Notes under the pieces: model-generated | What the model saw: the letters and a program-made list of their open reading frames with translations, nothing else | The model's database searches: none | Told to the model about the DNA's origin: nothing | DNA from: Halorubrum saccharovorum DSM 1137 | GTDB lineage: Archaea; Halobacteriota; Halobacteria; Halobacteriales; Haloferacaceae | Direction: 5' to 3' | DNA length: 64,000 bases | Assembly: GCF_000337915.1 (NCBI RefSeq) | Contig: NZ_AOJE01000010.1 | Location: forward strand, 97,653-161,652 | Program-made: the position numbers and the translations under genes | Shown: in pieces, positions 14,115-15,780 of the stretch | Layout: every line of letters starts with the position of its first letter | Numbering within the stretch: position 1 is the first letter of the stretch

Positions 14115-14480
14115 TTACTGCCCGACCACGTCGGGTTCGAGCGCGCCGACCTCTTTGAGGATCGCCTCGACGTTCCCCTCGGCGACGCCGTTCTCGCTGA
14201 GCGCCTCCCCGAGGTAAGTCGCGACGCGCCCGAACGCCTCCTCGGTGATCCCCATTCCCTCGTGGGCCGCTCGCATGTCCGCGCCCTCGTAGGAGACCGG
14301 GCCGCCGGCGACCGCGCTGATGAACTGGACCTGATGGGCGTACAGCGCCTCGCGGTCGACGCCCTCGAAGTACGGTTCGAGGACGGGATCGTCGAAGACG
14401 CGGTCGTAGAAGTCCGAGACGACGGCCTCGACTGCCTCTCGGCCGCCGATGTCGGCGTAGATTGACTTGGAGTCAGGCAT
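14115..14480 (-). CDS. Truncated hemoglobin (group I-like)
   Basis: A 121-residue protein with the 2-on-2 globin pattern: B/E helix region FYDRVFDDPVLEPYF, then HQVQFISAVAGGPVSYEG, then the proximal histidine in RAAHEGMGI, then a G/H helix FGRVATYLGEAL. Group I truncated hemoglobins scavenge nitric oxide or bind O2. The ATG at 14480 is used because the residues upstream are not globin-like and a regulatory palindrome lies 41 bases before it. It sits beside DUF2249 and cupin genes that share the same motif, which suggests expression under low oxygen or NO. Heme binding is inferred from the family. Confidence 0.9.
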   Translation of the reverse strand: MPDSKSIYADIGGREAVEAVVSDFYDRVFDDPVLEPYFEGVDREALYAHQVQFISAVAGGPVSYEGADMRAAHEGMGITEEAFGRVATYLGEALSENGVAEGNVEAILKEVGALEPDVVGQ

Positions 14481-14520
14481 CACGTCGATCGACTTCGTTC
14501 CGACTGAAGACGCCTCCGAA

Positions 14521-14533
14521 AGAACATGTTCGG
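14521..14533 (-). promoter_or_regulatory. CGAA-N4-TTCG-like site for the hemoglobin gene
   Basis: AGAA-CATG-TTCGG, centred about 46 bases upstream of the hemoglobin ATG. The right half is perfect and the left half has one mismatch. The motif type (CGAA-4 bp-TTCG) is, as I recall, that reported for the oxygen/denitrification regulator NarO in Haloferax. Confidence 0.5.
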
Positions 14534-14559
14534 GGGTTGTCCGTGTCGCCCGGTCAGAC

Positions 14560-14573
14560 CCGAATACGTTCGG
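14560..14573 (+). promoter_or_regulatory. CGAA-N4-TTCG site for the HemA-dimerisation-like gene
   Basis: CCGAA-TACG-TTCGG has perfect five-base half-sites and is centred ~43.5 bases before the ATG at 14610, where an activator just upstream of the TATA region would sit. It lies between the divergent hemoglobin and 14610 genes. Confidence 0.6.
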
Positions 14574-14609
14574 GGGAACACACACCCCGGCGACGGCCGA
14601 CGCTCGGAC

Positions 14610-14948
14610 ATGAGCACTGACCGGTCCGACGGAAACGCCGCCCGATCCGAGGGGGATCACGACGAACTCGGAGCGCCGCCCGATCCGGAGCGGCTCCGGA
14701 GGCGGCTCCGCCGCCGAACCGACGCGATCGAACGGCGAGAGGTCGCGGAGGCCGTCTCGGTGCTCGACGCCCGCGGCGACCTCACCGACGATCAGCGCGA
14801 GACCGTCCGAGAGTTCGGATCAGCGCTCGTCGAGGCGCTGACCGCCGCCCCGGAGCAGGCGCTGGAGCGGGCGGCTCGGACCGAGGGGGCGAGGGAGCGG
14901 GGACGAGCGCGGGCGGTCCGCCGGCTCTTCGACCTCGACGAGGTGTAG
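14610..14948 (+). CDS. Stand-alone glutamyl-tRNA reductase dimerisation-domain-like protein
   Basis: A 112-residue, highly charged helical protein. From residue ~26 on, LRRRLRRRTDAIERREVAEA, then a loop ARGDLTDDQRETV, then FGSALVEALTAAPEQALERA, reads like the C-terminal helical dimerisation domain of HemA (glutamyl-tRNA reductase), the first enzyme of heme synthesis. There is no catalytic or NADPH-binding domain. It may bind HemA and tune heme supply, but no such function is established for it. Divergent from the hemoglobin, with its own CGAA-N4-TTCG site. Start at ATG 14610. Confidence 0.6.
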   Translation: MSTDRSDGNAARSEGDHDELGAPPDPERLRRRLRRRTDAIERREVAEAVSVLDARGDLTDDQRETVREFGSALVEALTAAPEQALERAARTEGARERGRARAVRRLFDLDEV

Positions 14949-14990
14949 CCTCGACCCCGACACGGTGTCGCCGCCGTTCCATCGGGGCAC

Positions 14991-15224
14991 TCAGTCCTCG
15001 GTCTTCGGGAACTCCGCGACGAACTCGTCGGGCGCGTTCTGGCGGACCTCGTACGCCTCCTCGTCGAACGCGGGGACCTCGGCCGCCATCTCGTAGTACA
15101 GCGGCTTCGGTTCGTGGTCGTTGACGATGGTGAGCGTCTCGCCCGGGTCCATCCCGTCGAACTCCTCGTGTATCTTGTCGTGGCGGTTCACCGGCGGGAT
15201 CTCGCGGACGTCGAGTCTCGGCAT
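14991..15224 (-). CDS. DUF2249 domain protein
   Basis: A 77-residue protein with the DUF2249 pattern LDVREIPPVNRHDKIHEEFD, then DPGETLTIVNDHEPKPLYYE. In haloarchaea this family is repeatedly found beside nitrite/NO metabolism genes; the biochemical role is unknown. Start ATG 15224 (MPRLDVREI). A CCGAA-CACG-TTCGG palindrome lies 40 bases upstream, followed by the TATA-like CTTAACA. It shares this palindrome with the divergent micro-ORF/cupin unit. Confidence 0.85.
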   Translation of the reverse strand: MPRLDVREIPPVNRHDKIHEEFDGMDPGETLTIVNDHEPKPLYYEMAAEVPAFDEEAYEVRQNAPDEFVAEFPKTED

Positions 15225-15263
15225 GCGATCGAAGAGTGGAGCCCCGTCCGATTCCGTGTTAAG

Positions 15264-15277
15264 CCGAACACGTTCGG
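15264..15277. promoter_or_regulatory. CGAA-N4-TTCG site shared by DUF2249 and the cupin unit
   Basis: CCGAA-CACG-TTCGG has perfect half-sites. Its centre is 46.5 bases from the DUF2249 ATG (minus strand) and 44.5 bases from the GTG at 15315 (plus strand), so one site can serve both divergent promoters. Confidence 0.65.
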
Positions 15278-15314
15278 GAACACTCACTCGCCGACGGGCC
15301 ACGAACGCCCGATC

Positions 15315-15392
15315 GTGACAGACACGACTGCCAATACGTCGACCGGCACCGACAGAGAGCGGCGCGCGCCGTCCGCCCGGAGGGGTGAGTGA
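15315..15392 (+). CDS. Micro-ORF preceding the cupin gene
   Basis: A 25-residue frame from GTG 15315 to TGA 15392, polar and arginine-rich at its end. Its start lies at the same distance from the shared palindrome as the starts of the other regulated genes, so it may be the first codon of a leaderless transcript. The cupin GTG at 15394 follows one base after its stop, and GGAGGGG at 15379-15385 lies inside its last codons. That is the layout of a translationally coupled leader peptide. No family. Confidence 0.35.
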   Translation: MTDTTANTSTGTDRERRAPSARRGE

Positions 15393-15393
15393 C

Positions 15394-15780
15394 GTGCCGG
15401 CGACCGACTTCGACGCCGAGCGGAGCTACGTCGACGAGCGGTTCTCGACCAGCGAGGTGTTCCGGAGCGACCGGATGAAGGTCGTCTGCGGTTACTTCGA
15501 GCCGGGACAGTTCATCCCGGTCCACGCGCCCGACAGCGACGTGGCGATCACGGTTCGATCCGGTTCCGGCGTCGTCCGGGAGGGCGAGACCGACCGACCG
15601 GTCGAACCCGGCGATGTCGTCGTCGTGGAGGGCGGCACCGCGCGCGGCGTGAAGGCGAACGGTGGGGAGCGATTGGAGGCGACGCTCGTCACCGCGCCGC
15701 CGCCGACCGACACTGAACACGACCCCGTCAGAGAGGGACTTCGACGCGGAGAGTTCGATCCGCGGGGCGACGGGGAGTAG
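15394..15780 (+). CDS. Cupin-fold protein
   Basis: A 128-residue protein. One double-stranded beta-helix domain (residues ~22-105) contains FEPGQFIPVHAPDSDVAITVRSG (cupin motif 1 with its single histidine) and VEPGDVVVVEGGTARGVKA (motif 2, no histidine). The usual H-x-H-x-E metal set is thus incomplete, and it may be a ligand sensor rather than a dioxygenase. The GTG at 15394 is preferred to GTG 15385 because GGAGGGG sits ~9 bases before it. It lies in the block sharing CGAA-N4-TTCG sites, and small cupins are frequent next to haloarchaeal denitrification genes. Confidence 0.75.
   Translation: MPATDFDAERSYVDERFSTSEVFRSDRMKVVCGYFEPGQFIPVHAPDSDVAITVRSGSGVVREGETDRPVEPGDVVVVEGGTARGVKANGGERLEATLVTAPPPTDTEHDPVREGLRRGEFDPRGDGE

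Follow-up and report, generated by a model that had tools for sequence, protein, structure and literature searches.

Three palindromes in the window (that is, the whole 64,000-nucleotide stretch of Halorubrum saccharovorum DSM 1137 analysed here) are very probably operators of the known haloarchaeal denitrification regulon, whose dispersed targets would be activated by an HTH_10 protein, and the four genes that they precede are, judging from their sequences, part of this regulon and not a separate one. Palindrome 1 (AGAACATGTTCG, 14521..14532, centre 14526.5) lies 46.5 bp from the ATG of a hemoglobin gene (14480, reverse strand); on direct reading it holds a perfect 10-bp palindrome, GAACATGTTC, yet is one base off CGAA-N4-TTCG. 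The centre of palindrome 2 (CGAATACGTTCG, 14561..14572) is 43.5 bp from the ATG of a gene for an orphan glutamyl-tRNA reductase (GlutR) domain (14610, forward strand). Palindrome 3 (CGAACACGTTCG, 15265..15276) is common to two divergent units, with its centre 46.5 bp from the ATG of a DUF2249 gene (15224, reverse strand) and 44.5 bp from the GTG of a micro-ORF that precedes a cupin gene (15315, forward strand). Re-reading of these coordinates and distances bears out the constant spacing before four starts that the initial annotation had claimed. Given a refined form of the motif at all four DUF2249 genes of the genome and conservation in several genera, the palindromes and their spacing are far beyond what chance would be expected to produce.

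The element itself has been described in two forms, CGAA-X4-TTCG (PMC5746218) and CGAAYATDKTYG (PMC10062603, PMC11218638), as the haloarchaeal denitrification element; the genes of the window are preceded by semi-palindromes of the latter kind, and the initial annotation had correctly named the motif as one of denitrification. In Haloferax mediterranei, the nos and nor promoters are less active when the motif is mutated (PMC10062603), and motif-bearing cyanoglobin and DUF2249 genes are induced in denitrifying cells (PMC10062603, PMC11218638), among them cyanoglobin E6P09_11805, which has the motif in its promoter and a log2FC of 4.16 under denitrification (PMC11218638). The hemoglobin of the window is a protein of this kind and its promoter likewise contains the motif (the two are likened by kind and not by alignment), although here the gene is divergent from the orphan GlutR-domain gene. 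The palindrome is the same as at the nos, nor and nirK promoters of H. mediterranei (the Hattori 2016 element) and likewise lies upstream of denitrification-linked genes, but two differences stand out: the H. mediterranei nir, nor and nos elements lie 66–79 bases before the ATG, whereas the distance here is 43.5–46.5 bp, which fits leaderless transcripts, and nirK of this genome has no close site.

In its loose form the pattern is common and by itself proves nothing: CGAA-N4-TTCG occurs 5 times in the window against 2.57 expected (a count reached in 12 of 100 shuffles) and 162 times in the 3.42-Mb genome (72 contigs), and we dropped it as evidence for this reason. The refined form CGAAYAYGTTCG has only 10 exact sites in the same 3.42 Mb, of which 9 lie in promoter regions and the tenth within a gene (C6:87294). 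The promoter sites belong to the GlutR-domain gene and the DUF2249/cupin pair of the window, norB and a divergent MoaD/SAMP-like gene, an Htur_1727-family gene and a divergent ABC-type substrate-binding lipoprotein gene, ferredoxin/CheF, a DUF2249 gene at C26, a DUF2249–cupin fusion at C70, a DUF2249 gene adjoining the nos cluster and a TIGR04053 radical-SAM gene, so that each of the four DUF2249 genes in this genome carries the motif (at 46.5, 45.5, 44.5 and 43.5 bp). The MoaD/SAMP-like gene (L037:7795-8238) starts 44.5 bp from its palindrome, on the opposite side from norB, and the palindrome between the divergent ferredoxin (Fer) and CheF genes (C12:79146, L039:7147) lies near midway, at 84.5 and 85.5 bp, that is, outside the usual spacing.

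The proposal of a regulon in the initial annotation had been made to depend on enrichment of the motif at other denitrification loci of the same genome, and sites were found at the norB locus and at the DUF2249 gene adjoining nos; near the start of nirK (C13:18834, L044:11679-12779) there is no site even when 2 mismatches are allowed, and nosZ has no close site directly upstream. The upstream region of nirK is very AT-rich, and two relatives (G135, G140) have exact sites close to nirK. A narG-sized molybdoenzyme was not found in the genome, so that a complete denitrification pathway is not shown. As norB carries a site and orthologues of the window genes lie within nirK/nor/radical-SAM clusters elsewhere, we rejected the reading of the four genes as an NO-protective and heme-linked regulon apart from nirK/nor; its heme link survives, since an AhbD-like gene bears the motif and the orphan GlutR domain lies beside such genes. 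The AhbD-like gene in question is the TIGR04053 radical-SAM gene (C70:326019, L043:8020), with an exact palindrome at 50.5 bp, and the Htur_1727-family 'rSAM-partnered candidate RiPP' gene (TIGR04031; C11:163142, L038:7143) has one at 54.5 bp; the presence of the palindrome at both of these unlinked loci suggests a role for the pair in denitrification or heme metabolism.

The factor that binds the element is so far "undisclosed" (PMC11218638). We give about even chances to an HTH_10 protein that lacks the CXnCXCX7C cysteine motif, is encoded in nor/radical-SAM clusters (own copy C70:203559-204305) and might also control itself. Its gene adjoins nor, radical-SAM and DUF2249 genes in several haloarchaeal families (G019, G027, G063, G165, G175, G246, G297, G310), is itself preceded by a site (at about 51 bp from its start in 7 of 16 sequences, at 44.5 bp in one), and tracks DUF2249 within Halorubrum (32/37 versus 7/15, p 0.005, at an author-chosen E-value cut-off of 1e-60, with phylogeny ignored and closely related paralogues blurring the count). 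For H. mediterranei, too, the literature proposes a bacterio-opsin-activator-like gene, which belongs to the nirK/nor cluster (PMC11218638). Against this, the copy of the present genome has no good site upstream; NCBIfam holds no model for the protein. The other candidate, possible but more doubtful, is a protein of the NarO/DmsR type (C11:161174) that would act as an oxygen sensor, the only 1 of 16 HTH_10 proteins in the genome with CXnCXCX7C. In its favour, H. volcanii needs NarO in order to grow by denitrification, and at nirK the palindrome is indispensable (both as cited in PMC5746218). However, Pfam groups the C11:161174 protein with DmsR (a DmsR_N match), and its plasmid relatives in Haloferax and Halorubrum lie in glycan neighbourhoods or adjoin DMSO-reductase-type operons, with no nar operons seen there. 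Nor does its orthologue track DUF2249 in Halorubrum (29/37 versus 9/15, p 0.19, by the same cut-off and again without regard to phylogeny), and at E 1e-25, a cut-off below which more distant NarO types may fall, it was not found in genomes that keep the sites (for example, G038, G138 and G142); H. mediterranei, moreover, uses the motif yet is reported to be without narO (PMC10062603). CGAA-N4-TTCG is the published denitrification element, but NarO as the acting factor, as initially assigned, is put in doubt by the DmsR_N match and by the other HTH_10 protein that follows the targets.

Whichever HTH_10 protein is involved, the promoter architecture fits an activator. In 46 non-redundant promoters, selected for having the site and not for flanking signals, AA is enriched near −36/−35 and AT content rises at −29 to −27, the region in which clear TATA boxes occur in the Halomicrobium and Halovivax hemoglobin promoters; in several promoters of the set the TATA box is weak or absent. 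Given these flanking signals and TATA positions, the start codons most likely coincide with the transcription starts (that is, the transcripts would be leaderless), which would place the palindrome just upstream of BRE/TATA. The spacing is real, and the earlier suggestion of an activator bound just upstream of the TATA box fits such leaderless promoters. This location alone is no proof of activation, and the sites could be repressor operators; we consider this improbable, as the core promoters are weak and mutating this motif has been reported to make promoters less active (PMC10062603).

Site and spacing are conserved at orthologous promoters. Among 28 named haloarchaeal hemoglobin loci taken as orthologous (57% identity or more), palindrome 1 is kept at 44.5–46.5 bp in 26, from at least eight named genera, and 25 of these 26 sites have at most two mismatches; the start codon is also conserved, and a second set of 30 loci, partly overlapping the first, agrees. 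The site is not kept at the Halegenticoccus and Haladaptatus loci, which are among the least similar of the 28, and is lacking in six hemoglobin paralogues (<50% identity). Across gene families the distance has a sharp peak. The site stands at 46.5 bp in 20 of 22 members of the DUF2249 family (variants mostly at 43.5–46.5 bp), at 43.5 bp in 9/9 distinct upstream sequences of GlutR-domain genes and at 44.5 bp in 7/10 heme-copper-oxidase-like genes; none of 15 katG promoters, used as a control, has a site. That the palindromes are functionless matches of chance or coding composition, as the frequency of the loose pattern in this GC-rich genome might suggest, is thus extremely improbable in the face of the fixed spacing across genera, the sites at all four DUF2249 genes and their absence from paralogues and katG.

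The first target gene (14115..14480, reverse strand) encodes a group 1 truncated hemoglobin of the cyanoglobin type, with a Bac_globin domain (Pfam, 1.5e-21) and plasmid homologues annotated as group 1 truncated hemoglobin. The third (14991..15224, reverse strand) encodes a 77-aa DUF2249 protein (Pfam, 9.1e-24) and the fourth (15385..15780, forward strand, GTG at 15385 or 15394) a cupin protein (Cupin_2, 1.2e-7). The micro-ORF between palindrome 3 and the cupin gene (15315..15392, forward strand) has 25 codons and a putatively leaderless GTG start, and its stop overlaps GTGAGTGACGTG at the cupin start; a Shine–Dalgarno-like GGAGG (15379..15383, forward strand; GGAGGGGTGAGTGACGTG, conserved in 4/5 Halorubrum) precedes this start and may serve in its translation. 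In five Halorubrum genomes the distance between the micro-ORF GTG and the centre of the palindrome is exactly 44.5 bp, the length varies from 24 to 30 codons by changes that preserve the frame, and the RGE end and the overlapping stop recur, mostly with GGAGG just before. We infer that the micro-ORF is a leaderless leader peptide and that cupin translation would be coupled to it or driven by the Shine–Dalgarno sequence. The DUF2249–cupin fusion found elsewhere in the genome (L041:8477-9019, C70:127803 region) has its mirror image in the window, where DUF2249 and cupin are encoded by divergent genes.

The second target gene (14610..14948, forward strand) encodes a 112-aa protein that matches the GlutR dimerisation domain (Pfam GlutR_dimer, PF00745, 6.4e-7, above the Pfam cut-off). 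The protein is modelled as helical (mean pLDDT 84), and a PDB fold search gave weak matches only, the best natural one being Arabidopsis GluTR (weak by E-value, probability 0.94). In these respects it resembles the C-terminal domain of HemA; unlike HemA, it is an orphan in which the catalytic N-terminal and NADPH-binding domains are absent (GlutR_dimer is the only Pfam match), and a true HemA is encoded elsewhere in the genome (C12:27834). The orphan domain, for which NCBIfam has no model, recurs across many haloarchaeal families. At 20/20 orphan loci, versus 0/27 loci of full-length HemA, a gene of the DUF2249, nirK, radical-SAM, oxidase-like or hemoglobin kind is no more than 1.5 kb away, although these loci are not independent in phylogeny. 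One speculative and rather unlikely role would be that this free-standing dimerisation domain, made from the palindrome only under denitrifying or low-oxygen conditions, pairs with and tunes glutamyl-tRNA reductase.

From the observed sites, spacing, conservation, gene identities and genome-wide association, the following mechanism can be envisioned. A dimeric HTH_10 (bacterio-opsin-activator-like) regulator would bind CCGAAYAYGTTCGG, with its centre about 45 bp before a leaderless start, and, placed directly upstream of a weak BRE/TATA, would recruit the basal transcription machinery under low oxygen or in the presence of nitrogen oxides. Its targets in the window would be the truncated hemoglobin (presumably for NO scavenging), the orphan GlutR domain (probably heme-linked), DUF2249, and the leaderless micro-ORF with the cupin gene; elsewhere, the dispersed regulon would extend to norB, three more DUF2249 genes and the pair formed by the AhbD-like radical-SAM gene and the Htur_1727-family gene.

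Published work (PMC10062603, PMC11218638, PMC5746218) has already described the element and what it does at nos and nor, has found cyanoglobin and DUF2249 genes to be induced, and has made the ahbD link. What we regard as new, in that no mention was found in the cited papers (which is no proof of its being unpublished), is the positional rule, together with the placing of the orphan GlutR domain, the micro-ORF and the radical-SAM pair among the candidate members. The published motif thereby becomes a rule of position (centre 43.5–46.5 bp before leaderless starts) that can serve for regulon prediction in any haloarchaeon, while NarO is questioned as the general regulator and an alternative HTH_10 candidate is named. 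The orphan GlutR domain, as a candidate member, is tied to the gene neighbourhood of radical-SAM heme and denitrification genes, and if its proposed role is true, heme supply would follow the demand of anaerobic respiration by way of an orphan HemA dimerisation domain.
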